A stretch of 64,000 nt of DNA from Sipunculus nudus (taxonomy: Eukaryota; Annelida; Sipuncula; Golfingiida; Sipunculidae). Each line of letters starts with the position of its first letter. Position 1 is the first letter of the stretch. Made by a program: the position numbers and the translations under genes. The stretch is taken from NCBI GenBank assembly GCA_026874595.1, contig CM049310.1:46351058-46415057 (forward strand), in the 5' to 3' direction. Under the pieces are notes generated by a model. That model ran no database searches. It was not told where the DNA came from and was given only the letters and a program-made list of their open reading frames with translations. This document shows, one piece after another, positions 23,755-47,611 of this stretch.

Positions 23755-25513
23755 TTAGGGTAAATCTTCTTCGTTAGTGTCTTTACTTTCAAGGAGAGGT
23801 TTTGGGGTTGAAAAGTTGTCCCATAATTTTGACACAAGCTCCGCTACAACAATTTCATTCGAATTCAGAGCAACAAGCCGGAGAAGCAGGACGCCATCTT
23901 GTCGTAAATATTCGTGGACAAATTCCTTGCATTTCTTTATGTCTTGTGCCTCTCCCTTTTTCATTCTGTCTTTGGCGCGCAAATGCCGTCTGACGTATTG
24001 TAACTGGTAAGCCCGAAGAGCACACATAAGGGTCCACTTAAAGACGCTGTACAGGGAAGCGATTGCCACTAATACAAGCCAGAACCATACGAAAATATAG
24101 ATTTTCTCATTAAAAAGATTGATCGGGAGTACACATTGGACGTTGTATTCATGATTATTTCCAAGAACTCTGACTTCGAATTTACACATGGTCACACGCG
24201 GGAACATTGAGGAGGCGACAAAATTTTCACCATTGAGAAGCGCGCGTAACACCTGAATACCGTACATATGGTAATCATTTCCAAGGAAGGCATTTAAGGC
24301 AAAAAGTTGAACCACAACGTTGATAAGGTAGAATAATTTAGTTAGAATATAAAGAAACACCAAATAGTTACCATAACGACGCCCACAAACTAAACAATTA
24401 CGCCGAGATAAATACTGTTTCAGCCCAACTAGACAGCCCTGTCGAAAATCCCGTTGTGCCACCAGGTAGCGCTCCATTTGCGCTGCCATAAAACTAACGG
24501 TTTTATCCATGGTTTCCGTGTATGCAGTGTGCTGAACTGTCATGGCGGACTCCACAATGTTGTTAACGTCAATGCCCAATCGGTTATTCATGAAACGCCA
24601 AACCATACAAGGGAAATAGAAGAACAGAGCTTGAACTAACAGTATCATAGGAACCCACTGGTAATACGTGATGTACTGTTCACGTTCAACTGTGTCCGGT
24701 AACTTCTCACGCAGAGGCACGTAATACGTGTTTGACACCCAACAGACCTGAAAACAAAACAAAAAATACCCGTGAACACATAAATCAGTTCAATTAACCT
24801 GACCATTGCACAAAATACCAACAGAGTTTGTCATAAGATTTAACATAAACTGATAGCTTGCATCTAAGTATTGATTTTGCGAATGGTGCCAGAACGACAA
24901 AGAAAAATATTTAAACTGAATCCTGATAAAGGACAACAGTAACATCACATAAACGAACAACCTATTAAAAGGTCATTATATTTCTCTATAGACGGAATGA
25001 TCTTACGGTGATAACTGCCACATGATCCGATTTTATTTTATTTTTTAGACCAATGGCTTGTGTTCTTTTTTTATAGCCCCGACCTGGTCATAGACCAAGA
25101 AACAGTTTCAATATGCGATTGATTTGTTACAATACTTACGGACGGATTTAGAATTTTAATATAAAATGAAATATCTGCATATACAGTCTTGAAATTTAAT
25201 TTCACGGTCAAATTAAATTAGAAAAATTAACAAAGTGCTCGTTGATTTTTATGTTCCTAACATGTATTACTTAATGGTCAGAACTGTAACATAGTAAATT
25301 TACCTTATTAGCATAATCCTCCCAGTTATCATTAAACTGCGCGGGACACCAGCAGTTGATGGGTTCCCCGGCGTACTGTTTAGTCGACACGACAATCGCA
25401 AACACCACGAGGACAAGCGTCGTGTATCGGTGGTTCAGACGGTCTACGAAATCGTCGTCCGACCGAACCTGCGTCTGTCCCACTTGGGTGGCTATGCCAA
25501 GGAGCTTGTCCAT
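23755..25513 (-). CDS. innexin, tandem copy 1
   Basis: Gap-junction channel protein of 400 residues, exons 25304-25513 (70 codons) and 23755-24747 (330 codons plus stop), phase 0, donor gtaaat, acceptor ttttcag. Four membrane segments at about 31-48, 103-121, 197-225 and 287-306. Extracellular loop 1 has Cys54 and Cys72 (plus an extra Cys56) and loop 2 has Cys258 and Cys275. The innexin signature YYQW is at 98-101, and CVLPINLFNEKIYIF follows loop 2. The start codon is in good context (AAGTCATGG) and is shared by copies 1-3. The first coding exon is preceded by 33 bp of UTR and a splice acceptor at 25547. The coding region and intron are nearly identical to copy 2. It appears intact. Innexins form hexameric to octameric hemichannels, and partner subunits could be the neighbouring copies. 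Confidence 0.95.
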
Positions 25514-25670
25514 GACTTCCGGTCCCGGCTGATGTTATTCTCGTTTCTGAAAAGAAAAGAAGGAAAGATGTTGTGTAGTTTCTCAGTATGCTTAATTCAA
25601 ATCACAAATTAAATGTCTAAGCACTTCAGTTTCTTAATTAAATATTCTACTCTGTGCAAACATTCTTTAT

Positions 25671-26780: not shown

Positions 26781-26936
26781 CTCTTAATGATTAAGTAAAG
26801 ATGCTCAAAGAAGCAATGTTCTGATTCCTTTCTTCTGATGTTAATCCTGTTCTTCCGCTGCTGTGTACAGAAACTTTTCACTGCAGTATCTTGAAGTTGT
26901 TTGGTGATTATGGGAGATACAGGGGCATATATAAAC
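26781..26936 (-). promoter_or_regulatory. innexin copy 1 core promoter and untranslated exon
   Basis: Reading on the minus strand: a TATA box (26926-26936, in GTTTATATATG), then CCCCTGTATCTCCC, then an untranslated exon that ends at donor AGAG|gtaag (26781). The same order, with CCCCTGTACCTCCC, is found at copies 2 and 3. The transcription start is inferred to lie near 26900. Confidence 0.65.
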
Positions 26937-27068
26937 ACCCTAGTAGCCTAGTAGCTATAGAGATAATGAGCTAACAACACAGGCTTGTGGGGATGAAAAG
27001 TTATAACTTGTATTCATGATCAGATCATTAGTCCACTGTTCACCCCTAATTATAATGAGGGGTGTGGA

Positions 27069-27155
27069 AACGTGTAACGCGTGCCGTGGCCTGTCCCCTG
27101 ATCCTTTGCCTGAAGTGGCTTAATTAAAGATGGGATTTGATTGCGACACTTCCGG
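27069..27155 (-). promoter_or_regulatory. conserved upstream block, innexin copy 1
   Basis: An 87-bp block shared with copies 2 (38824-38910) and 3 (46491-46577). It includes GTGCCG, GGCCTGTCC, TGATCCTTTG, the palindrome CTTAATTAAAG (27119-27129) and CACTTCCGG (27147-27155). The last reads CCGGAAGTG on the gene strand, an ETS-type core, and the palindrome is homeodomain-like. The distance between the two motifs is the same in all three copies. Confidence 0.7.
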
Positions 27156-29689
27156 ATTGTTAACGGGGCATATTTTGAAAACGAGCATGCACTGTATATA
27201 TTTTATTCAGAATTCAATAATCTCCTAATTTATGCCAATATTATGATCGTTGCATATTTGGTTATTGTGAATCCGTTGAAGCTTCCAGCTAATATAATCG
27301 AAGCATTTATATATCACGTGGTCGACTTTATATAGTTTTTTTACATGTGTTTTTATACAGTTGTGAATTCTGACTGAAAAATACTGCTTGTGATTAAGAG
27401 TATAATCTTAATCTATCATTTACACAGTGTCAAGGAGCTAATTTGACACTTCTCACATCACGTGTCTCTGACTTATATTGTGGGTGAATCTGCACCTAAA
27501 ACGGTAATTTTCTGTAAATAATTATATATTATTTAACTGAACAAGACGTATTATCATACAACCAAACAAGTTTTATCATTATACAAATGAACAAGAGACT
27601 TACGTCAAAATGTAGTTGTACATGCATGCCTTAAAGACAAAAACTAGATGTTTCTCATCTCTGAGATATTACAGAGATATATAGAGTCACATGGTACGGT
27701 TCTTGCACATGTAAAATGCGCAATTAAAGTATCTGAAGGAGAAAAAACTATTATCCATTAAGCCGAAAAATAAAAAAAAGTTGAAAGTGACCCGACCGGT
27801 TTCCGTTAAATTGTCACGGGTATGATTTTTTTAACCTTTTTAGCAACAACCAATCTATATATGACCTCTGTTATATCGGTATAAATGTGTTATGAACAGC
27901 GTCATAATGTCGGGTTCCGCGTCGGAATTCAAGGTGCACAGTTATATAAATATTATATTGGTGTTTTCGTACTCTTCTTTTGCACAAACGGGATGGGTGA
28001 CTGTGATGAGATTACCAGGCGAGGGACGGCCCGGAAATATCAGCGGGTGTTGAAAATTCAGGACGCACTGGAAATACATTACGTACCGAAATTACAGGAC
28101 GTACTGTTAAATGAGGACAAGTGCTGATATTTTCGCCAAATGATATCATGGACGTTCTCTGGCGACACGGATTGCAAAAATGTTCTTGAGAAGAACACTC
28201 TCGCAAAGTTTTATGTAAACCTTCAAAGAGAACAAATCCACTGCGAAAAGGAATATTTTTTTCCATCGTAGTAGTTTCTGTCATTTATCCATCAAGTTTC
28301 CCAAAGGAATGAAACGTTCTTCTTACATGTTTAACTGATCAACCCTTTCAAATTTGAATGGCCTTCTCTTGTATGCTCTCATCAACCGAAAATAGGATAG
28401 TTCAAACAAATAGTTCCGCTAATGCGGAGAACATTGATCAGGCAAAACTAAGTTTAAAGTGTCTGTATAGGGTTAGCCGTATGAAGGTTATAGGTTTCAT
28501 ATATTTTAGATTCACATTGTTTTCTCAAGTCAAACTAGGCTGCAAAGAGTTGGTTTACTTTCTCTTAAGGCTAGCTAAAACATGTCTTATCTGTTTTTGT
28601 TTTGTGATTTCCGACATACTCTGCGTATATCTAAATGAATTGTAAATATTCCCTGCTAAGAAAGGTATAATACCTTTGTGACGGATCAGATCAAAGGTCT
28701 TGAACGACACACTTCATCCCCTACATTAAGAGTTCAGTTTTTTTACCTTCAGGTAAACGCTTAGATGTAATATTCTGCAGAACTACTCGTTTTAATAAAT
28801 CTCTTGTGCCATCGGTATTAAACTTTTAAACTCACAACCCTCTGGATATTTAATGTTTTAAATTATGTGTTTTACCTGGAGAATTATCTGTTTTATCATT
28901 TTTACATGCTTATTTTTACCTGCATTGCCAAATACGTTCTGTGTTATTGTTATGTATTTATTTACTTTTTATGTAATGAATTGCAAGTCAACAACGAATT
29001 CCTTGAATAGACGGTAGGGAAGGCTTATAAATATTAACTTATCTTACATTATCTTATGAATTGGTTTATCTACAAGCGGTTAGTAAACAAGATATGTCCA
29101 TGGTGACATACATAAGAACTTTAAACTGAAGGGGGGAGGGGATATTGCATATGCGAGGAGGTTTAAAGGTCACTAGCTGAAAAAAATAGCACAACTCTGG
29201 AACGTATGACTTGAAGCAATATGTCCTTGTTGAATGTATATGGATTATTTGGTGGGGCTTCCACATGTAATAAACATGTCGGGGCGAGCTAAAACGTCTA
29301 TTATACTCCAGGCTAATTTTATATATTGCATTCCATGTGCTTATTATACTCTTTGTGAAAATTGGGAAATTGAATCGGTGAACGTATGTATCATTTACCA
29401 ATAAAAAAAACCCAAGGGCCAAAGTTTAAAGCATCCATGTATTTTTAACAGTAAATATCAAAACAATAACAGAATTAAGAGCGTCCGATATGGGGGTGCA
29501 AACCCTGCGCGGATGACAGGCCTAGTGTTCCAAGTTGGTTCCATGAAAAGTTAATTAAACCTATTATTCCTTTTAATTTTTTTTTAATTAAAAACAATTG
29601 AAAAAAAAACCACCCTGGCCATCATGGTATTGCTTTCCTTGATTTTAAACATAGCTAACTAAAAAAAACAAATGCCCCCCCCCCCATTT
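27156..29689. other. upstream part of innexin duplication unit 1
   Basis: No supported gene. Blocks are homologous to the region upstream of copy 2: 27780-28020 with 40010-40250 (shared AGCAACAACCAATC, AAGGTGCACA, TATTATA, ACAAACGGGAT) and 28380-29420 with 41060-41710. 29055-29300 also resembles the TTAA MITE at 33494. Confidence 0.6.
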
Positions 29690-29697
29690 GATGCACG

Positions 29698-29985
29698 TTG
29701 CAGAGAAATAAATCTACAATAGTTGGGAAACAAATACATGACTCAATTAAAGGTGGCCCAAGAACTGTAGACATATTTGTAAACGCAGTCAGTAATGACG
29801 TTCAGGATGATGAACTGAAAAAATATATTGTTAATAAAGGAGTAAATGTATTGAAAATTGAAAAAGTCTCTCATGATGAATCTATGATGAAGTCATACAA
29901 GGTGCAAATAAGGGTAAATGATATAGATATGGTAATGGATGCAGATTTTTGGCCAGAGGGTATTGGTTGTAGAAATTTTTTTTAA
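29698..29985 (+). pseudogene. LINE ORF1 C-terminal fragment
   Basis: Ninety-five residues with an RRM-like pattern (VDIFVNAVSNDV, YKVQIRVNDIDMVMDADF) ending WPEGIGCRNFF, a C-terminal motif of the form WP.G...R.F common in ORF1 of CR1/L2-like LINEs. The true start is missing. Confidence 0.6.
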
Positions 29986-30029
29986 CAAGAAGGCGTGACA
30001 ATAGCAATAGTGGTAAATCATAATCTGCA

Positions 30030-30763
30030 TTGATCATGGCGGCACTGACAACTCCTACAAACCTCAGTTGTATATCATATAACCTAACGGGTGATAACAA
30101 TGATACAAAAAGGTCATATATAGGAAACCTTATTGAAACAAACCATGTCGATTTTATATTTTTTCAAGAGACCTGGTTGCTTAGTGAACGAGAGCCATTA
30201 CTAGCCACTATTCATAAGAATTATATGTTTAATGCTCAGACAGGTATGGACAGCTCAAAGGATATAATGTGTGGTCGCCCATTGGGTGGAGTGGCCATTC
30301 TATGGCACCAGTCGCTCTCAGGCCGTGTTCATCCTGTAAATGTAAAGTCAAATCGTCTGTGTGCTATATCTTTACAACTGTCAGATGTTTTTAATGTCAT
30401 ATTAATTTGTATATATTTGCCGTGTGACAATCGATCACAAACAGATGCTGATCAGGAATTTATTGATACTTTGAGTGAGCTTCAGCATATTTTAGAAACA
30501 CGTGATGCAATTGCTGTTATCATTGGTTGAGATTGTATTGATGATCTAAATAGATATAATGCCCACACAAAGTACTTAAACAGTTTTTGCAGCACCCATC
30601 AACTATACTTTGCTTGGGACAGTCCAGATGATGTGCCAGATCATACTTATATGAATTGTGAGGGAGTGGGTGTATCTACTATTGATCACTTTATATGTTC
30701 CGGTAATATTTACAAATCTATCTCACATGTTAGAATTGTAGATGATCCATTGAACGCTTCCAG
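30030..30763 (+). pseudogene. LINE endonuclease domain, 5' part
   Basis: EEP/APE-type endonuclease fragment. FFQETWL carries the catalytic Glu, GGVAILWHQSL is the usual glycine-rich block, and ICIYLPCD precedes a stretch that should contain the GDFN-like motif. Here VIIG is followed by an in-frame TGA (30528-30530). The frame then continues through DHTYMN and STIDHF to the TRIM insertion. It cannot make a working protein. Confidence 0.8.
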
Positions 30764-32530
30764 TGTTACGGTCCCTTTTCACACCAAACAACTCAGGCCG
30801 AACCGTAACACATATGCTCAGACACGTTCTCTTCAAATGAATACGTAACCAAAATATGGGTGCAAAAACAGTACTATATTACTAGATTACAATATTTACA
30901 TTCATACACAAATAATATAATATTCAATACATAACGTAAATTATAACCAAGTCTCTGACGAAAACTGAGTCTCTAAATAACGAACTGTAACGAAATACTT
31001 AACTGAATCCGGTATACGAGAAACTGAAGTCCATCATCAACACATAATTCGGGCACACACAAAACTGAAGTCCTGTATTAATCCATGTGGCACCAAACAA
31101 ACAAAGTCTCTCCTCTTCTTAAATAATAAAGTTCATGGCGTGGTTCATGGCATTCCGTGGGCTTGGGGACCAAGAGCCCACGGTCACGGTCTCCGGGGAT
31201 AACAGCAATGTGGCGTATCAAAGTCAATAGTCCCGCCTCGTCCTGCAGGCGAGTTCGTTTTATAGGTTTTCAACAATGGGTGAAAACCGCAGAAGTTTGT
31301 GGTTTTGCTTGAGAGAAACGATAGCGCCGGCAGAACTGCAGAACCAGTACTGAATGGTCCAAGAATAGTTTTTATGTTTCTAAAAGCGCGTCAGTAGTCA
31401 CTGATAGCGGGGTGGATCCATAAGCGTGGAAACGGGGGCGGCCACACCACTTCGTGGCGCCATCCTCCGATGTCCGGGTGACGTCCATGCAACACCCCCA
31501 CCCTTAAAAGAAAGAAGGTAAGGAGAGCAAAGCATTAGCACTGTATGACGAGTGTATAAGTAGTTTGATATCTTAAGAATTAGTTTATGCTTCTCAAAAC
31601 TAATTAATTATCATCATCACAAATAGTATAATCAGCAATATCTTAATACATGTAATATATGTAATACAACTCTTCCAAAGGACAGAAAATTCCATTGGAA
31701 TAAAAACTGTCAAAATGCTTTTGAAAGAGCCAAAGCTATATTACAAAGTGCACCTGTGTTACAGGCTCCAAATTTTGATAAACGTCGCGGTCGCCATTAT
31801 GTTACGGTCCCTTTTCACACCAAACAACTCAGGCCGAACCGTAACACATATGCTCAGACACGTTCTCTTCAAATGAATACGTAACCAAAATATGGGTGCA
31901 AAAACAGTACTATATTACTAGATTACAATATTTACATTCATACACAAATAATATAATATTCAATACATAACGTAATTTATAACCAAGTCTCTGACGAAAA
32001 CTGAGTCTCTAAATAACGAACTGTAACGAAATACTTAACTGAATCCGGTATACGAGAAACTGAAGTCCATCATCAACACATAATTCGGGCACACACAAAA
32101 CTGAAGTCCTGTATTAATCCATGTGGCACCAAACAAACAAAGTCTCTCCTCTTCTTAAATAATAAAGTTCATGGCGTGGTTCATGGCATTCCGTGGGCTT
32201 GGGGACCAAGAGCCCACGGTCACGGTCCCCGGGGATAACAGCAATGTGGAGTATCAAAGTCAATAGTCCCGCCTCGTCCTGCAGGCGAGTTCGTTTTATA
32301 GGTTTTCAACAATGGGTGAAAACCGCAGAAGTTTGTGGTTTTGCTTGAGAGAAACGATAGCGCCGGCAGAACTGCAGAACCAGTACTGAATGGTCCAAGA
32401 ATAGTTTTTATGTTTCTAAAAGCGCGTCAGTAGTCACTGATAGCGGGGTGGATCCATAAGCGTGGAAACGGGGGCGGCCACACCACTTCGTGGCGCCATC
32501 CTCCGATGTCCGGGTGACGTCCATGCAACA
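30764..32530 (-). mobile_element. TRIM-like LTR retrotransposon, 1767 bp
   Basis: Two direct repeats of exactly 731 bp (30764-31494, 31800-32530) start TGTTAC and end GCAACA. Only about three substitutions are visible between them. They are flanked by a 4-bp duplication CCAG (30760-30763, 32531-32534), and 305 bp separates them. On the minus strand the order is LTR, then TGGCGACCGCGACG next to it as a primer-binding-site candidate, then a purine run AAGGGTGGGGG just before the other LTR. A TATAAAA box also reads on the minus strand inside each LTR. There is no gag or pol of its own. Confidence 0.9.
31672..31790 (+). pseudogene. Gypsy RT/RNase H junction fragment, antisense in TRIM
   Basis: Translating the plus strand gives a 30-residue piece with FHWNKNCQNAFERAK and SAPVLQAPNF, the recognisable connection between reverse transcriptase and RNase H in Ty3/Gypsy polyproteins. 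It is antisense to the inferred orientation of the surrounding TRIM and ends at its primer-binding site. This could be captured sequence or the result of a rearrangement. It is too short to function. Confidence 0.6.
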
Positions 32531-32534
32531 CCAG

Positions 32535-33268
32535 TCATAGTCCTGTATTTTTTAAATTTAATATTGATGCAGGTCAGTATTACATGGTGAATAATGTGAT
32601 GACTTTCAAGAAAACACAAATTGATTGGGTTAACTCAACTGAGAACGGGATCATAGAATATAAGAATGCTTTAGATATGTACCTTAAGGACATTTGCATA
32701 GCTAGTAATCATTTGACATGTATGGATAACGCGTGCTCATTATCTGAGCATAAGAAAAGTATTGATGTTTTATATACCGATATTGTGAATAGCTGTGTCA
32801 GTGCAAGTAATCATTGTCTACCCTTTAAGAAAACACCTAGGTGTAAACTTAACCAAATACCATACTGGTCGGAGCACGTTAAGCCCTTTAAAGAATAAGC
32901 ACTTTTCTGGCATTTGCCGTGGAACCAAAATGATCGTCCAACAATTAGACATGTAGCCACTACAAGACGCAGAACGCGAGCCCACTATCATCAGGCAGTG
33001 AAGCAGTGTAAACGAAATGAGGATATTTTTTGCTTTATAACAGTTGTGATCGAGACCTGTGGGCGGAGATTTGGAAAATTAGATCAGGTGTTCCTGTGCA
33101 GACTAAGGTTGTTGACAATAAATGTTTATGTACTGAGATTGCCAATCATTTTAGGAAAAAATACGAGGATTTGTATAATAGTCTCCATGACAATGCAGAT
33201 GATCATAGTGCATTAGAAGATGTGACAATGCGAAGGATACATGTGAATGATAAATTAGTATTAAAGTA
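32535..33268 (+). pseudogene. LINE endonuclease end and linker
   Basis: Directly after the TRIM the endonuclease resumes: with one CCAG removed the frame reads through SHSPVFF, the C-terminal S-D-H-x-P-like motif (Asp lost). The segment to 32898 then has WVNSTENGIIEYKNALD and YWSEHVKPFK. It ends at a stop. 32914-33268 shows TTRRRTRAHYHQAVK and, in another frame, LWAEIWKIRSG and ANHFRKKYEDLYNS, which are typical of the segment between endonuclease and reverse transcriptase. Confidence 0.7.
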
Positions 33269-33493
33269 ATAAAGTATTGTTCATTGTCTTGCAGGGTCTT
33301 TTTCCCTCATAAATATATTCATTGCACGCTTTAACACATTTTTATGCACTATGTATACTGTTGAAAATAATGTTGCACGGTTCTCAGCTAAAAGAGTTAA
33401 GTATACATCTGTCGGTGTACTTGGAAACAATCTAAGATATCTTGAAAGTGAGATTGATAAATATCGAATGTGGGGCGACACTGGTAATCTTAA

Positions 33494-33938
33494 AGGGGCC
33501 TTTTGAAAAAGAATTTATGTGATTTCTGGCATCCTCTGTGTATATATCAATGATCTAAGGGTAATTTTGGTTGTAAAAACTTCTTATAAGGCCTTTGTGA
33601 AGGATGTATAAACTTGTTTATCTACAACATGTTTGTAAACACAGTATTGTTGACAAGCGAGAAAAACAAGTAACCTAAGGTAATAGGTTGCATAAATGCG
33701 GAGGTAGAAAGGTCTCTTGTTGCAAAACGCCATTAGCCAAGGTTATCTGACTTGCTGCCAGATGCTCTTGTTGAATTTGTTTTGATTATTTTGGCGGGCC
33801 CCACATATTATAAACACATTGATATAAACGAAACAAGCAGCCTGTGTGTGGTGATATCCATGTTTTCTGGCATACTTTTGTAAAAGCTCCAAGGGATTAC
33901 CTATAGTTTATAAAGGTCAGATTGGTAATTGGGCCCCT
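33494..33938. mobile_element. TTAA-type MITE, 445 bp
   Basis: It begins AGGGGCCTTTTG and ends GGGCCCCT, flanked on both sides by TTAA (33490-33493 and 33939-33942), as for piggyBac- or Kolobok-like insertions. The interior is related to 28600-29300 (GTTTATCTACAA, GGAGGTAGAAAGGTC, CTTGTTGAAT, GGCGGGCCCCACAT against GGTGGGGCTTCCACAT). Non-coding. Confidence 0.75.
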
Positions 33939-33942
33939 TTAA

Positions 33943-35289
33943 AGAGTCACTATCGAAAGGTACCAAGGTCTGTTAACGTAGAATTAATATCGGAGTAATT
34001 AAGACGGATTAAGTACGTGACACTTAACAACTGAGGAAGTGAACGTGCTGGTTAATGTGTTGTCTACTATTGAGGTGATGTCTTTGGACTGAATTGTCCT
34101 ATATCTGTATTTTGATTTGCACTTTTTTGTTTGTTTGTTTGTTTGTTTTTATTGTATACAATCAGTGTACTCTTTTTGGGTACGTATAAAGATACATATA
34201 TAAAACGGAAAGATGGCCATATCGCAACATGCAGGTCGAGTCCTGGTTTAAGTATAATGTTTAATAAGATCCCATAAAACACTCATTCCGGGTTTATTTA
34301 CGCTTGGATTGACACCAAAATTGAATTTTGAAAACACTTCACAATACCAACCTAAATGATAAATTTCGATAACATACGTTATACCGTCTCCAGATATCGA
34401 GCGGACATACATACACAAACACAAACGGAATCGAGTGAAAACAATAACCCTCGCTTAATTAAATATTGTATATACTAATACAGACGACAAGAGTTTAGCA
34501 GGAACTGTTTAAAAGTATTGCATAATCGGGCAAAGAATTTTTGTCGCACCCAATATTCATGTGAAGTATGGAATTTTACTTTTGGCAGAGTTTATACCTC
34601 TGATATTGTAGAGAGACGCCTGTAATTTTATTTTTTTATAAGCGTATGCGTGTAATTTCTTGCTATGAGCGTAAGCGATATACGGGGAGATCCCGGGTCA
34701 AAGGTCATCGATCGGAGAGGAATGCAAAACGAGGGGACGAAGTTAAGTTACTGTAAGGCTGTTTGTCCCTTATTGACGGGAATTATATGTTACTTAAGTT
34801 AATAAACGTTGTCTCAGTCATGGAGCTGTCACTTATAAATATCATCGACCCTGTGCGCCAGTAATCATGACAATATAAAGATTGAAATTTGAAGGTATCA
34901 ATTGTGATTTAATAAACATAAAAATCTGTTTTTCACCTGGACAGAACAGAGAACGTTGAATTACCAATTCCAGGTGTTTCATTTTCATAATTTTATGGTA
35001 GCACCATGCAGGAAATTCAGAACAGTTCGGTTTATTTATACAATTTTGTTTAACTATAATAGTTCCTGAGGTATAAACATGGTTGAACCAATTAGATGTT
35101 ATGAAAAACTGTCAAATTGTCTGCTGCTAATGTCACCTAAGCCAGTCAAATTATTGAATTTAGCTTAAATTATTACAATTTTGATAATTGACGTCGATAC
35201 TTACTGGTATTGTTAGTAATCAGGGATAACAGCATAGTTAAGATGAAATTTACGTATAAATATGTGACATTTTGGTTGTTTTAATGGGG
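33943..35289. other. downstream part of innexin duplication unit 2
   Basis: No supported gene. 34550-35120 is homologous to 42160-42780 downstream of copy 3 (GAATTTTACTTTTG, TATCAATTGTGATTTA, TTTTATGGTAGCACCATGCAG, CAATTTTGTTTAACTAT, GAACCAATTAGATGT). Short poly-T and GTTT repeats lie near 34130-34150. Confidence 0.6.
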
Positions 35290-35300
35290 TTTATTTTATT
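35290..35300 (-). terminator. candidate poly(A) signals, innexin copy 2
   Basis: Two overlapping TTTATT (AATAAA on the minus strand) about 1.06 kb beyond the stop, in the context TAATGGGGTTTATT that copy 3 shares as TAATGGGATTTATT. Confidence 0.45.
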
Positions 35301-36351
35301 ATGGAGTGTTTTCTTCAATATAGGAGAGACAGTACAGACAGACAGAGAAATAAAGAAAATATCAAATTATAACATAAAACACAAGTTCATTTTTCAAAAT
35401 CAACTGTATATATATATGTATATTTCATAAAAGAAACATTTGTTTCTAACATACACATAACAACAAGCAATTCAAACAAGTTAGGATACAGAGTTACGAT
35501 CATTATCGTAAAACAATAAAAAAATGAATCTGCAACGTTTCGAGATATTCACGTTTTCACATTTCTCTTTTGTGCAACGTAATGCACATATCACTTATCC
35601 TTCATTGACTAGGCAATAAATATAAAATAAACTAAGGGTCTGGTATCGGGGGAAAAAGAATTTTCGTTAGGTTGGCCATCGACAATCGGTCCAATATTAA
35701 TATTCTTACAGCAAGAACGTTCAGAAAATTTCAAATTAACCATGATGGCATTTCTCGTAAACGGCGATAATAAAGTTAATTTCAAAAATATATAAAAAAT
35801 ACGGAGCTTGTTTCAGCGTAATTATTCATCTTTTTGTGAGCATGTGGCCATGATACCTCAAGGTTTGTTTAAATTCCACAATTATGTCAAATGTGAAAAT
35901 GAAGTGCACTTGACATGATATAGAATTCAAAGGTAATTTGAAAAAGGAAATTTTAAGGTAGCTGTTCAATGAAATTATACCTATATTGTGCTTTTGATAC
36001 CTTTCAGAGAAATAAAAAATCCTAATAGGAAAATTAGGAAAATCTTTAATTATTATATAGGTATATTGTGCCAGCCTATCATACCATGTACAAGCAGGCA
36101 GCTCCATGCTTGCTTGAAATCTTCTCGATAATACCCACTTTCTGTTGAACATCACAGCAACACATTGTAACTATGGCGACGATTAGTTTCTCTGTCTCTT
36201 GACTATCAGAACACTGACACATACAAATCAAGTCCAAGTTCAAAAATGTATGTCCAGACTTTGTGGTTCACTTGAGAACACTGACTACATATGTGCGATG
36301 CCTTTGGACACAGCTATATATGAATGGTCTATTTTTTAGCTCAAGCAAAGT

Positions 36352-38102
36352 TTAGGGTAAATCTTCTTCGTTAGTGTCTTTACTTTCAAGGAGAGGTTTT
36401 TGGATTGAAAAGTTGTCCCATAATTTTGACACAAGCTCCGCTACAATAATTTCATTCGAATTCAGAGCAACAAGCCGGAGAAGCAGGACGCCATCTTGTC
36501 GTAAATATTCGTAGACGAATTTCTTACATTTCTTCATGTCTTGTGTCTCGCTCTTTTTCATTCTGTCTTTGGCGCGCAAATGTCGTCTGACGTATTGTAA
36601 CTGGTTAGCCCGAAGAGCACACATAAGGGTCCACTTAAAGACGCTGTACAGGGAAGCGATTGCCACTAATACAAGCCAGAACCATACGAAAATATAGATT
36701 TTCTCATTAAAAAGATTGATTGGGAGAACACATTGGACGTTGTATTCATGATTATTTCCAAGAACTCTGAATTCGAATTTACACATGGTCACACGCGGGA
36801 ACATTGAGGAAGCGACAAAATTTTCACCGTTGAGAAGCGCGCGCAATACCTGAATACCGTACATATGGTAATCATTTCCAAGAAAGGCATTTAAGGCAAA
36901 AAGTTGAACCACAACGTTGATAAGGTAGAATAATTTAGTTAGAATATAAAGAAACACCAAATAGTTACCATAACGACGCCCACAAACTAAACAATTACGC
37001 CGAGATAAATACTGTTTCAGCCCAACTAGACAGCCCTGTCGAAAATCCCGTTGTGCCACCAGGTAGCGCTCCAGTTGCGCTGCCATAAAACGGACGGTTT
37101 TATCCATGGTTTCCGTGTATGCAGTGTGCTGAACTGTCATGGCGGACTCTACAATGTTGTTAACGTCAATGCCTAATCGGTTGTTCATGAAACGCCAAAC
37201 CATACAAGGGAAATAGAAGAACAGAGCTTGAACTAACAGTATCATAGGAACCCACTGGTAATACGTGATGTACTGTTCACGTTCAACTGTGTCCGGTAAC
37301 TTCTCACGCAGAGGCACGTAATACGTGTTTGACACCCAACAGACCTGAAAAAAATACCCGTGAACACATAAATCAGTTCAATTAATCTGACCATTGCACA
37401 AAATATCAACAGAGTTTGTCATAAGATTTAACATAAACATATAGCTTGCATCTAAGTATTGATTTTGCGAATGGTGCCATAACGAAAAAGAAAAATATCT
37501 AAACTGAATCCTGATATAGGACAACAGTAACGTCACATAAACGAACAATCTATTAAAAGGTAATTATATTTCTCTATAGATGGAATGATCTTACGGTGAT
37601 AACTGCCACATGATCCGATTTTATTTTATTTTTTAGACCAATGGCTTGTGTTCTTTTTTTATAGCCTGGACCTGGTCATAGACCAAGAAACAGTTTCAAT
37701 ATGCGATTGATTTGTTACAATACTTACGGACGGATTTAGAATTTTAATATAAAATGAAATATCTGCATATACAGTCTTGAAATTTAGTTTCACGGTCAAA
37801 TTACATTAGAAAAATTAACACAGTGCTCGTTGATTTTTTATGTTCCTAACATATATTACTTAATGGTCAAAACTGTAACATAGTAAATTTACCTTATTAG
37901 CATAATCCTCCCAGTTTTCATTAAACTGCGCTGGACACCAGCAAGTGATGGGTTCCCCGGCGTACTGTTTAGTCGACACGACAATCGCAAACACCACGAG
38001 GACAAGCGTCGTGTATCGGTGGTTCAGACGGTCTACGAAATCGTCGTCCGACCGAACCTGCGTCTGTCCCACCTGGGTGACTATGCCAAGGAGCTTGTCC
38101 AT
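36352..38102 (-). CDS. innexin, tandem copy 2
   Basis: Exons 37893-38102 and 36352-37344 encode 400 residues with the same intron position and phase as copy 1. All hallmark features are present: YYQW at 98-101, paired cysteines in both extracellular loops, four membrane segments, the LPINLFNEKIYIF block and the EEDLP terminus. Differences from copy 1 are few and mostly conservative or cytoplasmic, e.g. Ser155 to Arg, Met161 to Leu, Val262 to Phe in loop 2, and Tyr317 to Asn. The intron is also about 95% identical to copy 1, whereas the UTR just upstream of the ATG is strongly diverged. It appears intact, with an acceptor at 38146-38147 joining it to an untranslated exon. Confidence 0.95.
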
Positions 38103-38308
38103 GACTTCCGGTTCCGGTGGATAGGATTAACTTCGCTGTCGTTTTCTAAAAAAAAAATGAAAGATTTTGTTTAATATTGTATGTAAATTTTTAAGTATCT
38201 TTAATTTAAACTCATAGTTTGTATTTATAAGTACTTCAGTTGCTTTATTATAAGTTCTACTAATATAAGTGCAAACCCTTGGAATAGTAAAGATGAATGG
38301 TATATATA

Positions 38309-38309
38309 A

Positions 38310-38340
<31 letters not shown>
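38309..38340. repeat. (AAT)n microsatellite
   Basis: About ten AAT units in the 5'-UTR intron of innexin copy 2, equivalent in position to the arrays in copies 1 and 3. Confidence 0.9.
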
Positions 38341-38342
<2 letters not shown>

Positions 38343-38555
38343 TTTAGTACAATATGCTCATAACACACAGCAGCGCCCTCTTTAGACACACACGTGTTGA
38401 ATATAGAGAAAATTATGATTATACATAATGACCATGTAAATGTTTATTGCTATCAATAAATTGGATACGTCCCGTTGTATTCTTCCCATCCTATGCTCAT
38501 ACACGTTTCAAATATAATTTTTCGTTAAAATAAAATGTTTATGTTATATTCTTAC

Positions 38556-38699
38556 CTCCTAATGATTAGGTGGAAATGTTCAAAAAAGAGTTGCAGTGAT
38601 TCCTTTCTGCTGTTGTTACTCCTGTAAATTCCGGTTGTGTATACAGAAGCTTGTATCTTAAGATGTTTGGAGATGGTGGGAGGTACAGGGGTATATATT
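38556..38699 (-). promoter_or_regulatory. innexin copy 2 core promoter and untranslated exon
   Basis: A TATA box (TAATATATAC, about 38692-38700) is followed on the minus strand by CCCCTGTACCTCCC. The untranslated exon ends at donor AGGAG|gtaag (38556). The arrangement is as in copies 1 and 3. Confidence 0.65.
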
Positions 38700-38823
38700 A
38701 TCATCTTGTAGTTATAGAGATAAAGGGCTAACAACACGGCCTTGGGGGTGATTAGTTATAGCTTGTTTTAATGATAAGGTCATTAGGCAAGGACTCACCC
38801 CTAATTGTAATGCGGTCAGTTTA

Positions 38824-38910
38824 AACGTGTTACGCATGCCGGGGCCTGCCCCGTGATCCTTAGCGTGACGTGGCTTAATTAAAGTTGTTATTTGATTGCG
38901 ACACTTCCGG
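38824..38910 (-). promoter_or_regulatory. conserved upstream block, innexin copy 2
   Basis: It carries ATGCCGGGGCCTGCCC, GTGATCCTTAGCGTGA, CTTAATTAAAG (38874-38884), TTTGATTGCGACACTTCCGG (ending 38910). Spacing between the palindrome and the ETS-like motif equals that in copies 1 and 3. Confidence 0.7.
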
Positions 38911-41740
38911 GTTATTCATGGCGCATATTTTTGAAAACGCGCATGTACAGTTTATATTTTATTAAAAAAATAAATAATATCCCAATATTATCATCGTTGA
39001 GTATATTTGATAATTGTGAATCATACATTCTTCTAACTAATAAATTGGACGCATTTTATAAATCAGGTGGTCATCTTTATATGCATGGCGGTTTTTAAAA
39101 CGTTATATTATTTAGTTATATTTTCGTGTGATTAACTGATACTCAGACATTTATACAGGTTACATATATTGCCAGAAACAGCCAAATCATAGCTGTAGGT
39201 TTAATTTAAACCTATCATTGAGACAGTGTCAAGTCGCTAATATCAGATTTCTCACATCATTTGACTCTAGTTTATATTGTTGTGGAAACTCCATATGAAA
39301 CAAAAGGTTTTTTTTTCTGTATGATGAATAATAAATATTTATTAACAAGATTTATTATCATTTATAGAACAAGATATATTGTTATACAAATGAACAAGAA
39401 ATCACCGAGACCAAATCTCCTTCTGATTCTGAGACACTGAGGTACACTCACACAGAACACTTAATGCACATGTAAGGTTAAGTAAACATATTCCACATGC
39501 GTTTGTTGTGTGAACGGAGATTTAGAATCCAGACTTTGCCCTGATTTGATTGGCTGGTACACATGTGACATCATGGACTGAATTTTATCAATAACTCAGA
39601 TCTAGTAATGCATGTGGGGGTTTTTTCTCTCCTGTAAATTTGGGACTGACAATGGCAGAAATATTGTGCTTTTACTGAGATCTAGTATTATGAGTCACGG
39701 GGGATTTCCCAATGTGTGACGTCACTGCCGAGTTGAAAGTGCTCATAGATGTGTCGATATGTTTTTTAACAAATCACACAACCTCATTTTTTTGTGTGAA
39801 AAAAAAGATAGGAAAAATGTTTTCCTCTAGGAATTGGGCTCATTTTTTGTAAAATCTATATTAATATATTCAAAGGCAATTATGATATATGATAGTACAA
39901 TGAGATTTTGAATACGTTTGCTTAACCTGTAAGATACACGTTTAAAATACCTGAAGTAGAATTAATTTTATCTTCTTAGTGGTGAAATAATCAGATAATC
40001 ACTTTCTTTGAGAAGTGACCCGGCCAGACCCTATAATTTGGTCACAGGTATGATTTTATAATTTGTAGCAACAACCAATCATTGTAAATGTGTTATATTG
40101 TTACACACGGTTATGAGCAGCTTTATAAACAGTGTCATAACGTCGGGGTTAGCGACAGAACTCAAGGTGCACAAGTTTAGTTATGTAAATATTATAGGGG
40201 TGTTTGCGTATTGTTCTATATATATTACAAACGGGATCGGTGGCTGTTATGGCTTTAGGGGAAAGGTAAAACCATTTTGTGTTTTCACAAAAAAAAAACT
40301 ATACTGTTGGATCCATAAATGGTAGAAGGCAACCAGTTAATCATTTTGATGTCATCAATACTTACTCCAAATCTGGCATTTAAATGACCGCTGAAGTTTT
40401 GTAAACAGGGTGACAATTCAGTGGTAGTGATATTCGACGAAATATTCTGCGAAATACTGTGATTGGCATCATATTCGTGATTTGCACTTTTTTTCGTGAT
40501 TTTTTATTTTCACTGTTTCGCGAGGGTTCAATTTTCGCGATTGTCTAATGTATGAATTGTCTAATGTGCTGATGGAAACATTTAAACAATGAGGACCAAT
40601 GGCTGTATCGAACGAATGTAAATAACTTATTATTGACATTATTGACAAATATATCAAAGATCTGATAATATTCGTAATACCAATCTCTGATTTTGCTATG
40701 GCTAACCTACATGATACGTAATCCATTGAGGCTGATAAGTTAACGACTCTTCACCTGTGCGGATAGCACGGACATGTTATTATTTAAATTAATTTTTAAA
40801 ATAGCGGGGATGTTACTCGAGGAAGTTTGAGCGGTATTTGGGGCAACAGGGATTAATTGCGTCAATGATTTCCAGGATGCTATCATAATGTTTTATGTTA
40901 TCCGCCACAGAAAATAAATCCACTGAGAAGCGGAAACATTTTTGCCATCATAGATGTTTCCATAATTTATCCATCAAAGTTCTCAGTGGAATGTCTTTCT
41001 TAACAGTTTAATTGGTCAATCCTTCCAAATTTAAATGCCCCTTTTGGGTATGCTCTCATCAATCGGAAACAGGACAGTTCAACCGAATAGTTCCGCTGAT
41101 GCGGAGAATATTAATCAGGCATAACTAATGTAACAGCGTGTGTATAGGGTTACATTATGAGTTTTTTTAATTAAATGTCACTACCTTGTTCGACTTGAAC
41201 CTATCCCGGTTGGCGGCGCCGGGCTCTGTATACCGGGTTTAGTAATGAAGGCAGGGATGATTAGTGTTCAGAGTGTCAGCACCAGGGGCCGATTAGAGGG
41301 GGTCAGGGGTACCTCTTTCTTAGGCTAAAGGATATAGGAGTTGAAATAATATACGGTAATACGCTTAATACAGAAATACAGCGCCGAATTGTATGTTTCC
41401 AACCTTTAACTTTTCTATACTTCTGCATACGACATAATGTCTGAATCCTTCAGCAATCCCGACCCACATGTTTACCTGTTCCAGGGTGTTGAGGCCCCCC
41501 CCCCATCTTTTCTGAGATTCAGTATGGGCTTCCGAGTATATTCCATTGTATGGACACCCTAGAAACAGACTATGGTATTTCTTCATTCACACTCTAGGCT
41601 CAACTATGTATTTTATATACTGCATACCATTATTAATGTATGGGGGGAAAATCAGTGAACGAATGTTACGTTCAGCAATAAAAGGTCTCAGGGCCTTTAT
41701 GATAATCGACATAAAGCACCAAATCACATGAAAATGTCAT
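38911..41740. other. upstream part of innexin duplication unit 2
   Basis: No supported gene. It contains blocks homologous to the regions upstream of copies 1 and 3 (40010-40250; 41060-41710). Confidence 0.55.
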
Positions 41741-42918
41741 ATACATAATAGCACTGTAATTTTATACTTAGTTTACATATCGAACGAATAAATTAATTAT
41801 TGAGTATATTATGATAACCAAGGGAAGAAGCTGTAATCGTATTGCTTCGTTAATTGTTACTAAAAGTTTCATATCGGGCGACACAGCCTAGCGTGCGATA
41901 TCAAGAATATTTCTCATACCATGTTTTTCATTACATCTGTTAATGGTTCAAGTAGTTTAAAATTTTGAGTTATGGTTAATTAATTTCAAATCCTAAGTGG
42001 AGTGAGGAATGAATTATGCACCCTTGTGAACCTTCATATAAGTCTTTATAAATGTCATGAACCAATCATTTCCAAACGATCACACTAATTTTGCCAACAC
42101 CTGTGACGCAATTTTTTTTTAAATATTGCTTATCAACAGAATTTATGTCGCACCGCATTTCCGTTTGAAGTGTGAAATTTTACTTTTGCCAAAGCATCTC
42201 CCTCTTATATAATGATTTAAAATTGTATGTATCAATTGTGATTTATTATACATGAACCCTGCTTTTACTGTGATAGAATAAAGAATGTTGAGAACAATAA
42301 ATTTCAGGCGTGTAAATAAAAACAAACTTGATTCACGGGCTCGGTTTATTTTGTAAGAGGTGGATGGAAAGGAACAGATGCTTCTAGGCAACTAACCAGA
42401 AATAATTATTTTCATATTTTTTATGCCTAACGCCTCATTAACGATTCAGCTGCATAGTGCTATTTTATTTAGTGACAGAAAGCAGGTTACACTCATAATC
42501 TGTCATCATTGTGCAATACATTTATATAGATTTATTTACTTTGACAAGTTACTGCTAAGTTTATACAAGAACTGGCATCTTTAGTCAATATCAAAGAATT
42601 GTAAGAGTAGAACATTTTCATGAGGACTTTTGTCCTCAATTTTATGGTAGCACCATGCAGTACAGTAAGTGCGGATAATCCATCCAATTTTGTTTAACTA
42701 TTATAGTTCGTCAGGTACAAAAATGGTCTAACCAATCAGATGTCAGGAAAAACCGTCAGGTGTGGACGTCATTATAGTCAGTTAAATTTTAGCTTAAATT
42801 ATCAAAATTGCGGTAGCTGACGTGGGTTATTATTGGTATCGTCATTCAATCAGTGATAAATGCAGAGATTAGGAGTAATTTACGTAATAAACCTGTGACA
42901 TCTTGATTTTTAATGGGA
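41741..42918. other. downstream part of innexin duplication unit 3
   Basis: No supported gene. 42160-42780 is homologous to 34550-35120 downstream of copy 2, with many small indels. Confidence 0.55.
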
Positions 42919-42924
42919 TTTATT
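42919..42924 (-). terminator. candidate poly(A) signal, innexin copy 3
   Basis: TTTATT (AATAAA on the minus strand) about 945 bp after the stop, in a context conserved with copy 2. Confidence 0.45.
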
Positions 42925-43868
42925 ATGCAGTGTACCATACGTCTTCTTCGATTAAGGAGAGAGAGAGTGTGTGAATGTATGTATGTAAGGAGAGAAATCA
43001 GGGCAAATTCCAAATATAACATGAAACACAAATCGATACATTCAAAATAAACTTTTCATCGATGTTTAATTCATAAATCAACACCTGTTTTCACACATAC
43101 ACAAAAAACAAGCACCCCAAACATGTTAGAATATGTAGACACGATTATTATATAGAGTAAAACAATACAAACAATGAAACGATTTGAAAGTTAAAGTTAA
43201 AGTGAGATAACTATTTCCTGTAAAGTTTCGAGAAAAAAATCACTTTTTTTCACAGTTCTCTTTGGTGCAACTCAATGTAAATACACGTATCACGTAATTT
43301 ACGTTCACTAGGCAATAAACAAAGTAAAATTTATGGTCCGGCTATCGGATAAAATGACCATATGGATAATCAACCATATGAATATCGATACCTTTCAGAG
43401 AGATCGATAATCCTAATAGGAAAATTAGGAAAATCTTTAATTGATATAAAGATATACTGTGCCAGCCAATCAAACCATGTACCATGTTGAGTAGGCAGCT
43501 TCATGCTTGAAATCATCTAGAAAATACAGTCCTCTGGCGAAATTATGAAGATTACAAACAGAGAAACAGTGTGTTAAACAATACAGCATCACAGTATCAA
43601 TGTGGAAATGATAAGGTTCTTTATCTGCTTCGTAGCAACTGTTAAAGAAACATTAAGATTGAAGGTATGACTTACGTAACCCATACATAAACAAGTCAAG
43701 TTAGTACTTTTGAAAATGCATGTCCAGACTTTGTAGTTCACGTGGGCACACATATTGCGAACGCGATGCATTTTGGGCACAGCTATGTATAGGTGAGCCC
43801 AATAATGGTATACTGTTAACCTCTAGTCAAGCTTTTCATACTACTCTTTACATCAGATTGCAAACAGT

Positions 43869-45719
43869 TTAGGGTAAGTCTTCTTCGTTCGTGTCTTTAC
43901 TTTCAAGAAGAGGTTCTTTGGTAGAGTAATTATCCCATAATTTTGACACAAGCTCCGCTACTACAATTTCATTTGAATTCAGAGCAACAAGCCGAAGAAG
44001 TAAGACGCCATCTTGTCGTAAATATTCGTGGACGAATTTCTTGCATTTCTTTATGTCTTGTGCCTCTCCCTTTTTCATTCTGTCTTTGGCGCGCAAATGT
44101 CGTCTGACGTATTGTAATTGGTCAGCCCGAAGAGCGGACATAAGGGTCCACTTGAAGACGCTGTACAGCGAAGCGATTGCCACTAATACAAGCCAGAACC
44201 ATACGAAAATATAGATTTTCTCATTAAAAAGATTGATTGGTAGTACACATTGGACGTTGTGTTCATGATTATTTCCAAGAACTCTGACTTCGAATTTACA
44301 CATGGTCACCCGAGGGAACATCGAGGAAGCAACGAAGTCTTCACCGTTCAGAAGCGCGCGCAACACCTGAATACCGTACATATGGTAATTATTTCCAAGG
44401 AAGGCATTCAAGGCAAAAAGCTGAGTCACAACATTGATAAGGTAGAATAATTTAGTTAGAATATACAGAGACACCAAATAGTTACCGTAACGACGCCCAC
44501 AAACTATACAATTACGTTGAGATAAATACTGTCTCAGCCCGGCGAGGCAGCCCTGTCGAAAATCTCGCTGCGCCACGAGGTAGCGGTCCAGTTGCGCTGC
44601 CATAAAACGGACGGTTTTATCCATGGTTTCTGTGTATCCCGTGTGCTGAACTGTCATGGCGGACTCTACAATGTTGTTTACGTCAATGCCCAATTGGTTG
44701 TTCATTAAACGCCAAATCATACAAGGGAGGAAGAAGAACATAGCTTGAACTAACAGTATCATAGGAACCCACTGGTAATACGTGATGAACTGTTCACGTT
44801 CAACTGTGTCCGGTAACTTCTCACGGATAGGCACGTAATACGTGTTTGACACCCAACAGACCTGAAAACAAAACAGAAAATACCCGTGAACACATACATC
44901 AGTTCAATTAACCTGAACCATTGCACAAAATACCAGCATCCTCTTGTAGGATGCTCCCGGAGCCGTGTTTGCATTCCTTTAATCGGCTCATATTCCCAGG
45001 TTTATTCGTGCATAAGTCACTATACATTTATGCATACTCCTTGATGAATCCAGAACATGTTCCGGATAAAACACAAAAATCTAATCAATTCAACATTTGC
45101 CCATTCCCAAAATGCCCAAGGGAGGGTCCAGGATTTGGGAAATGGGAGGGTCACGCCCAGGAAAACTGAAAGAAAACCTAAAAAAGGTACCCTTTCCGGG
45201 AAGGAAGGGGTCAAGTTCGCAAAATTTGGTTTGAAACCCTAAAACAGGTTGTTTCGGATCAACCCCCCCCCCCCCCCACCTCCGGATCCGCCAATGTGCG
45301 AGATACTGTTCATGATAGCGTGAGTTATGTTGTGAAAAAATACACAGAAACACAAGAACGGTGATTATAACACATACCGTCCCGACAGAGATAAAGAGTG
45401 TTAAGCTGCCGGGGTAGTTTAACGTCTTCATATAAAAACGAAACATCTATTATACAATTAGAGGTATATAATAGTCAGAAAATCAGAGAGTGTAAAATTG
45501 TACATTTACCTTATTGGTATAATCTTTCCAGTTATCCGTAAACTGCGCGGGACACCAGCAGTTGATGGGTTCCCCGGCATACTGTTTGGTCGAAACGACA
45601 ATCGCAAACACCACGAGGACGAACGTCGTGTATCGGTGGTTCAGACGGTCTACGAAATCGTCGTCCGACCGGGACTGCCCCTGTCCAACCTGGGAGGCTA
45701 TTCCTAAGAGTTTGTCCAT
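43869..45719 (-). CDS. innexin, tandem copy 3
   Basis: Exons 45510-45719 and 43869-44861, 400 residues, same splice position and phase. The signature YYQW, the loop cysteines and the four membrane segments are intact. It is more different from copies 1 and 2 than they are from each other (first exon SQVGQGQSRSDDD; second segment AMFFFLPCMIWRLMNNQLG; SQRNCIVCG). The intron differs: the first ~75 bases match copies 1 and 2, but most of the rest is replaced by nested MITEs (44940-45390). Downstream 3'-UTR sequence is also diverged. It appears functional. Confidence 0.95.
44940..45390 (-). mobile_element. CCTCCGCCA-family MITE in innexin copy 3 intron
   Basis: Reverse-oriented copy: GTTTGCATTCCTTTAATCGG, CATATTCCCAGGTTTATTCG and GAATCCAGAACATGTTCCGG on one side, TTCATGATAGCGTGAGTTATG and GTTGTGAAAAAATACACAG on the other. 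The element is split by another MITE (45105-45292), so it was inserted first. Confidence 0.75.
45105..45292 (+). mobile_element. GGATCCAGG-family MITE, nested
   Basis: It contains GGGAGGGTCCAGGATTTGGG, GGGTCACGCCCAGG, TTTGAAACCCTAAAACAGG, a C run of about 15 and ACCTCCGGATCCGCCAATG, the family order seen at 11428. It lies within the CCTCCGCCA-family element. Confidence 0.65.
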
Positions 45720-45923
45720 GACTTCCGCTTCAGGTGGATATTATTCTCTTTGCTTTCGTCCCTGAAGAAAGAAAATAGGTTTAAATTTAGCTTTAATTTG
45801 TAAATTTCTTAAGAATTTTTCACTTTAACTTGATATTGATTTTTTTAACACTTCTCTCTAACACTTCTTGTAACATTTCATTTGCTTTAATATGCCTTCT
45901 TTGTAGTGCAAACATCCTTTGAA

Positions 45924-45970
45924 TAATAATAATAATAATAAAAATAATAATAATAATAATAAAAATAATA
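45924..45970. repeat. (AAT)n microsatellite
   Basis: AAT array with AAAAAT interruptions in the 5'-UTR intron of innexin copy 3. Confidence 0.9.
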
Positions 45971-46210
45971 AATATTTATTACACATAGAATTGCCTTGAG
46001 TATTATATACTATGAGTGATATATTTTGAAAAAAAAAACAGAAAATTATTATTATTTTTATGTCCATTTAAATGTAAATTTTATATTCATAAATAATATA
46101 CGGCATGTAAACGTCACCTTTAATATATTATTATAAAAGATTCTTCCTAATGAATTCAGTATTCTGACTAAGCTAAGATCTTTTGAAATAACAAAATGTG
46201 AAATGCTTAC

Positions 46211-46366
46211 CTTAACACAAAGTTGTCCGAAAAAAATTGTTGCAGTGGTTTCTTTTAGTTGATGGTACTCCTGTAAATTCAGCTGGTGCATACAGCAGCT
46301 GTATATACTAATGCATCTGAAGGTTGAGTGTTTGGTGATGGTGGGAGGTACAGGGGTGTATATATC
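46211..46366 (-). promoter_or_regulatory. innexin copy 3 core promoter and untranslated exon
   Basis: TATATA (46359-46364) is followed on the minus strand by CACCCCTGTACCTCCCACC. The untranslated exon ends at donor TTAAG|gtaagc (46211). The layout equals copies 1 and 2. Confidence 0.65.
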
Positions 46367-46490
46367 AACACTTGTAGCTATAGAGATGATGGATTAACAA
46401 CTGGACCTTGAGAGGTGAATGGTTATAATTTGTATTTATGATTAGGTCATAAGGCCCGCACTCACAGTTAATTATGATGTGAGCAGAATA

Positions 46491-46577
46491 AACGTATTAC
46501 ACGTGCCGGGGCCTGTCCCATGATCCTTTGCGTGAAGTGACTTAATTAAAGCTGGGATTTGATTATGACACTTCCGG
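46491..46577 (-). promoter_or_regulatory. conserved upstream block, innexin copy 3
   Basis: AACGTATTACACGTGCCGGG, GCCTGTCCCATGATCCTTTG, CTTAATTAAAG (46541-46551), CACTTCCGG (46569-46577). Distance to the TATA box is about 132 bp, as in copy 2. Confidence 0.7.
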
Positions 46578-47611
46578 GGCTGTTACCGGACACAACCTTT
46601 TTAAAAACATTTCATTATATATATTATATCTTTGTTTTTTTTTTTTTTTTCATTTTTGGATGAACCAAAGTGTATCAATCAATCAATCATTATTTGCATT
46701 ACTTTTTTGCTAAAAACGCTTTAAGTAATACTTATCTTAATATCAACAGGTTTTTACACAGAAGCCTTTTAGACCACAAAGGTGGACTCAGGTTTTATAC
46801 AAAATAGAGCATATATTATTACTTTCACATTCAATTTTACTGTGTAATTATTCTTAGCTTAAATACAACAAACATATCACTTCTGTAATGCCATTGATTT
46901 TATTATACATTTTACTGAACTTGTTGTTTGTACATAAATTGTATATTATTGTTCAGTACATGGTTTATATTCTGTCAACACCACAACACATTCCTATATT
47001 TATATTTTCTTAATGGACTCATCAATCGGATTTAAATCTTAGCTGGTATGAACTTATCTTAAAACCATCATCTCGGCCACTCTATAACTTTTCGTCTAAG
47101 CAATGGTATCGTAACTTTATAAAGTTAAATGTAAATCACACAATTGAACATGGTTGGTTTTCCTACAGTTTTTTTACCATTTAGAGCAGAAAGATTTTAC
47201 ATAAAAAATTCAGAATACCATAAAAGTACCTTAAAAGACTCAGTCTCAGTGTTTAACAGGAGACATTCAGTAATTGATTCGTTATGACTATTGCAAATTC
47301 TGCACAAGTAAAATACATATAAACAGTCTTGGGAGGAAAAATAATATTATCCATTCAGGAGGCAAGATTCAAAATACCTGATCGGAAACCCTCTAAAGAG
47401 TCACGGCCATGATTAATACCGTTTTAGTAAAAGCTCCGTTATAAACATATTAATAATACTGTTATAAACAGCAGTGAAAACGGGTCATGAATGCCAGGCC
47501 AGGTCAATGCAAGAACTCGAGGTGCCCCGTTATTTAAATTTGACAGGATTGTTTCTCTATCGTGTAAATGTAGTCATGAGGGCACATATTATACATATAA
47601 AATATAATCGA
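46578..47611. other. upstream part of innexin duplication unit 3
   Basis: No supported gene. A segment near 47400-47580 is weakly homologous to 27800-28000 and 40020-40220 (AAGAACTCGAGGTGC, GTTATTTAAAT). T-rich run at 46628-46650. Confidence 0.5.

Follow-up and report, generated by a model that had tools for sequence, protein, structure and literature searches.

Innexin genes of the array and their upstream block

The window analyzed here is a stretch of 64,000 nucleotides of Sipunculus nudus DNA (C5:46351058-46415057; genome size 1.43 Gb) that carries a tandem array of four innexin genes on the minus strand. The subject of the analysis is a block of 87 bp lying upstream of three of these genes, a candidate promoter element. 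Family PF00876 matched the exon 3 open frames of all four genes with scores of 224-231 bits (cut-off 25), and the gene models of copies 1-3 comprise 400 residues each. The genome contained 16 innexin matches, including the four of the array. In a protein tree of 15 rows (the four array genes and 11 other loci, with the fragmentary 16th match L018 excluded), the array genes were grouped at 100/100 support, and gene 4 was placed outside copies 1-3. Read along the minus strand, copies 1-3 share the order of block, TATATA, predicted non-coding exon 1, GTAAG donor, intron, and two coding exons of 210 and 993 bp. The positions of these features are given below, where the starts of exon 1 were placed by guess about 25-35 bp past the TATA.

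27069-27155, minus strand: conserved block of copy 1, with the ETS-like CCGGAAGTG at 27155-27147 and CTTTAATTAAG at 27129-27119
38824-38910, minus strand: conserved block of copy 2, with CCGGAAGTG at 38910-38902 and CTTTAATTAAG at 38884-38874
46491-46577, minus strand: conserved block of copy 3, with CCGGAAGTG at 46577-46569 and CTTTAATTAAG at 46551-46541
26928-26933, minus strand: TATATA of copy 1
38692-38697, minus strand: TATATA of copy 2
46359-46364, minus strand: TATATA of copy 3
26782-26903, minus strand: predicted non-coding exon 1 of copy 1, start guessed, followed by the GTAAG donor
38557-38662, minus strand: predicted exon 1 of copy 2, start guessed
46211-46329, minus strand: predicted exon 1 of copy 3, start guessed
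25304-25513, minus strand: coding exon 2 of copy 1, with ATG at 25513
37893-38102, minus strand: coding exon 2 of copy 2
45510-45719, minus strand: coding exon 2 of copy 3
23755-24747, minus strand: coding exon 3 of innexin copy 1
36352-37344, minus strand: coding exon 3 of innexin copy 2
43869-44861, minus strand: coding exon 3 of innexin copy 3
61486-62478, minus strand: coding exon 3 of innexin copy 4, whose exon 2 lies past the window (window-equivalent 64260-64469)

A sequence-only reading of this DNA had proposed three aligned blocks of about 87 bp at these positions, each with two motifs at a fixed spacing of 37 bp and a shared TATA box 130-145 bp away, and its description was borne out. 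The blocks form 87 columns aligned one to one without indels, 71 of which are identical in all three copies (pairwise identities of 76/87, 77/87, and 74/87, the last for copies 2 and 3). The motifs CTTAATTAAAG and CACTTCCGG are exact in every block, with a start-to-end distance of 37 bp each time, and their exact copies in the window are confined to the three blocks; 100 shuffles gave an expectation of 0.00 for the pair. Being homologous copies, the three blocks count as one event, not three. On the gene strand TATATA lies 126-135 bp downstream of each block, close to the claimed distance. The ETS and homeodomain motifs were recovered as well: CCGGAAGTG, with the core CCGGAAGT that we take to be of ETS type, and CTTTAATTAAG, with the core TAATTA that we presume to be of homeodomain type, are exact in all three copies. 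A second ETS-like motif, CCGGAAGTC, stands immediately before the start codon of copies 1 and 2 (25514-25522 and 38103-38111), and copy 3 has GCGGAAGTC.

Conservation and probable recombination in the putative promoter tract

Outside the block, identity across all three copies was 75/121 between the block and TATA, 83/137 from TATA to the donor, 54/168 upstream, and 22/57 at the start of intron 1, with Fisher p values for the comparison with the block of 0.0016, 0.0006, 2e-14, and 1.5e-7, respectively. The block was also better kept than the remainder of the promoter tract (p = 2.8e-4). Since it had been picked for looking conserved, every 87-column window of the tract was scanned and the columns were permuted; the block was the best-kept window, with scan-corrected p = 5e-5 when gaps were treated as changed positions and 0.010 when they were dropped. 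The numbers of gap openings per pair were 0, 0, and 0 in the block, versus 2, 2, and 2 and 3, 5, and 4 in the next two segments. For copies 2 and 3, the identity of the block also exceeded that of intron 1 (244/371, p = 2e-4).

Just upstream of the block, copies 1 and 2 matched at 141/185 sites, copies 1 and 3 at 65/168, and copies 2 and 3 at 74/177. The claim that the surrounding sequence has diverged therefore holds mainly for copy 3. A separate alignment of this stretch gave 0.49 for copies 1 and 3 and 0.40 for copies 2 and 3, and over the entire upstream part copies 1 and 3 matched at 342/777 = 0.44, inside the range of 10 shuffles (0.38-0.46). The upstream DNA of copy 3 is homologous too, being colinear with that of copy 1 (E = 6e-8), and is nearly decayed. 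The distal homology is located as follows.

27695-28008, no strand assigned: distal upstream homology of copy 1, aligning with 39913-40251 and, in its 27704-27966 part, with 47301-47554

Upstream of copy 1, a dispersed repeat is inserted at 28016-28158; it matches many places in the genome, among them a tandem array on C6.

The three copies are not related in the same way along the region. Sites grouping copies 1 and 2 versus copies 2 and 3 numbered 65:7 upstream, 5:3 in the block, 18:20 between the block and TATA, 21:22 in exon 1, 22:1 in exon 2, and 237:8 in intron 2. These patterns differed between the upstream part and the block-to-TATA segment (p = 3e-6) and between exons 1 and 2 (p = 1e-4), so that the history of the promoter tract differs from that of both sides. 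Over 1991 bp (23539-25528 and 36137-38117), the identity of copies 1 and 2 is 96.2%, and the upstream limit of this stretch lies about 15 bp before the start codon. Intron 1, where they match at only 201/377 sites, and the DNA further upstream are far more diverged; the near-identity of about 2 kb is likely a gene-conversion tract. In copies 1 and 3 the synonymous divergence of exon 3 is 0.28, yet intron 2 matches at about half of the aligned sites. Both the near-identical tract and this contrast fit gene conversion or unequal exchange.

The apparent conservation could itself be mainly a product of such exchange: copy 3 would have traded its promoter and exon 1 with another copy, the upstream edge of the block would mark the breakpoint, and the block would be no more than the least changed end of the tract. 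We regard this as a possible but rather unlikely explanation. It agrees with the shift of site ratios along the region, with the identity of copies 1 and 2 between the block and TATA (0.73), which is no higher than that of the flank (0.75), and with the blastn match of copies 1 and 3 ending exactly at 27155/46577. However, an exchange tract alone does not explain why the block, free of indels, is better kept than the rest of the same tract and than intron 1 of copies 2 and 3, and the site pattern of the block itself was not clearly different from that of the upstream part (p = 0.057).

Occurrence of the block and its motifs in the genome

DNA similarity search of the genome was insensitive, recovering two of the three known blocks in one run and one in another, and occurrence was therefore judged by pattern searches. 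The pattern GGAAGTG-N17-CTTTAATTAA occurred three times in the genome, always in the array, while its reversed control gave 0 matches. When a maximum of 3 mismatches was allowed, two longer pieces of the block were likewise found genome-wide in the same three places only (controls 0). No matches to the block pattern were present in viral_contigs, and no innexin relatives were confirmed in viral_contigs or genome_contigs, where no relatives of this genome are listed. When the upstream DNA of the 12 other innexin matches was searched with the three promoters, the best match had only E = 0.035; the searched stretches were 10 or 8 kb long, with about 6.5-8.8 kb of each lying upstream of the coding start, and the first exons of those innexins may sit beyond them. 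As a whole, the block is found in copies 1-3 only.

At gene 4, neither the 60 kb of sequence retrieved past the window nor the genome-wide pattern searches revealed the block, and it is thus present in three of the four array genes rather than in every one. A match of 18 bp at window-equivalent 64864-64847 (E = 0.11), similar to the DNA immediately before the TATA of copy 2, was too weak and was not used. Since gene 4 has no recognizable block, control by the block does not extend to the whole array, contrary to what the sequence-only reading had proposed. In gene 4, TTTAATTAA occurs about 150-160 bp before the start codon, with TATATAA close behind it (L019 about 610-630; window-equivalent 64617-64627).

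A loose scan for GGAAGTG and TAATTA 5-60 bp apart in either order gave five hits in three of the 12 upstream stretches. In 60 first-order Markov simulations the mean was 0.78 and the largest number 3, although such a model may underestimate the clustering of TAATTA; the 100 kb of sequence flanking the window had no hits. Two of the five hits share one ETS-like site, and four of them start more than 1 kb away or involve this shared site. CCGGAAGTG lies less than 1 kb from the coding start at a site on C14 only. There, a distant innexin whose protein is 44% identical to copy 1 has the pair CCGGAAGTGTGACGTGTAATTAA (CCGGAAGTG-N7-TAATTAA; C14:8929016-8929038, L033:7910-7932) 878 bp before its coding start. 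In the array the corresponding pairs lie 1642, 808, and 858 bp upstream. The C14 pair has the order and strand of the array with a closer spacing and precedes a GTAAG donor by about 110 bp, and its flanks have no visible likeness to the rest of the block.

Genome-wide, CCGGAAGTG-N5-20-TAATTAA, a spacing range chosen after the C14 hit was known, was found 10 times (three in the array, one at the C14 gene, and six elsewhere). The reversed control also gave 10 matches, which indicates no general enrichment. By post hoc arithmetic, seven non-array pairs in 1.43 Gb correspond to about 5e-4 expected in the 101 kb searched. Among the 16 innexin matches, CCGGAAGTG followed closely by TAATTAA was present upstream of four, namely the three array copies, which represent one event, and the C14 gene, i.e., one of the 12 outside the array. 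The C14 pair lends some independent support to the two motifs as candidate regulatory sites. Tentatively, and with considerable doubt, an ETS-like site followed closely by TAATTAA might be a promoter grammar of more than one innexin lineage in this animal. In the array it would have a fixed spacing within the 87-bp module of copies 1-3, kept amid homogenization of coding sequences by gene conversion and drift of the promoters; at the C14 gene, the spacing would be closer and the distance to the coding start similar.

Repeats are common in the window, but with only three occurrences in the genome by pattern, it is very improbable that the block is a fragment of a mobile element, and the same judgment applies to a structured RNA or a coding exon. 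A dispersed repeat was ruled out by this number of matches. Structured RNA and transfer RNA were ruled out because the block had no Rfam or transfer RNA matches and no folding signal (z-scores from -0.88 to 0.47, no covarying pairs). Five of the six frames of each block copy contain stops. The remaining frame, a gene-strand one, runs open over 28 codons in each of the three copies, and its 16 variable sites are distributed 6:4:6 over the codon positions by hand count, without an excess at the third position, which ruled out a coding exon. A bacterial promoter scan was uninformative for animal DNA.

Other features of the window include a direct repeat of 733 bp (30764-31496 and 31800-32532; 99.6% identical, 1036 bp apart), which could be terminal repeats or have arisen by a recent duplication. 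At 13860-15179 and 17762-18298 there are an intact DDE_Tnp_4 transposase frame and an opposite-strand MADF (Myb/SANT-like) frame, a pairing that we take to be that of PIF/Harbinger elements. An open frame of 326 amino acids at 9832-10812 matches rhodopsin-family 7tm_1 receptors, and a tandem array of 28-bp units occupies positions 15-757.

Promoter interpretation and known systems

A proximal promoter element fits these data because the block lies upstream of a TATA-like site and a predicted exon 1 with a donor, has no coding, RNA, or folding signal, occurs in the array only, and is conserved above the rest of the tract. We therefore consider that the block is probably part of the proximal promoter of three tandem innexin duplicates and is under moderate constraint. 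It is found in a similar place just upstream of the gene start in all three copies, the start itself being a predicted one. Alternatively, the block could be the start site or 5' leader of another transcript that uses no TATA box and initiates in the region of the ETS-like site. Starts without TATA commonly have ETS sites, and CCGGAAGTG lies at the upstream edge of the block, but the TATA-like site, predicted exon 1, and splice donor downstream in all three copies make this alternative improbable.

Several results weigh against a promoter element kept by selection, in addition to the equal count of the reversed control and the lack of the block at gene 4. The excess conservation, real on the three-way test, is only moderate. 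Single-pair scans were not significant for copies 1 and 2 (p = 0.44) or copies 2 and 3 (p = 0.43), as opposed to copies 1 and 3 (p = 0.0022), and tests of copies 1 and 2 without scanning were weak (p = 0.02 and 0.04). The two invariant runs of 11 bases are no more than expected given 16 variable sites (P = 0.51), the block was selected because it looked conserved, and the ETS and homeodomain labels derive from consensus motifs that we assumed. Moreover, the site patterns suggest recombination in the region, and this mosaic history confounds the comparison with neutral flanks, since one neutral yardstick is unfit for all parts. The sharp upstream edge of the block, visible only against copy 3, may be a breakpoint, and recombination that left an edge in copy 3 probably accounts for part of the contrast between block and flank; the contrast drawn by the sequence-only reading thus overstates selection. 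Of the preserved enhancer or proximal promoter module proposed by the sequence-only reading, the position, the restriction to the array, and the conservation above the tract stand, while the strength of preservation is reduced by the moderate excess, the two non-significant pairs, and the probable edge in copy 3.

If the block is a promoter element, the ancestor of copies 1-3 would already have carried it, at a distance of roughly 130 to 220 bp before the TATA-like site. Moderate purifying selection on protein-binding sites would keep it, while the neighboring non-coding DNA would drift and be reshuffled by recombination or gene conversion. An ETS-family activator would most likely bind CCGGAAGTG, and the TTTAATTAA site may be the target of a homeodomain protein. 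Such binding would give copies 1-3 overlapping expression.

The block is thus real, restricted to the array, and of an ordinary type; the simplest reading is that gene duplication passed on a promoter element to the three copies. The finding is modest and mostly ordinary, and the C14 pair raises its interest a little. It provides a case of promoter evolution in a tandem array, where one can see which parts of duplicated promoters are kept while the gene bodies are homogenized and the flanks decay. If the two sites are functional, their binding proteins would be candidate regulators of innexins, and the C14 gene would be an independent place to test this.

No paper joining innexin, tandem, promoter, and conserved element was found in the open-licence PMC literature, and none of the listed titles and abstract beginnings on innexin arrays or innexin regulation describes a comparable block. 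The clustered innexin genes of Drosophila have been attributed to local duplication (cited in PMC6193117), as the array here would be, but the text passages of that paper on the cluster describe no shared promoter block. In echinoderms, passages on kirrelL describe a promoter-proximal element whose Ets1 and Alx1 (homeodomain) sites both mattered for activity (PMC8903837). The likeness lies in the promoter-proximal pairing of ETS and homeodomain sites and is an analogy only: the kirrelL element belongs to another gene and phylum and was tested by mutation, whereas the innexin block resembles it in motifs. A parallel in form is provided by the conserved blocks in 5' non-coding regions of dicot rbcS genes. 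Those footprints extend over 27 genes of three plant families and the block described here over three paralogs of one genome, but both are short conserved stretches upstream of duplicated genes (PMC1852302).

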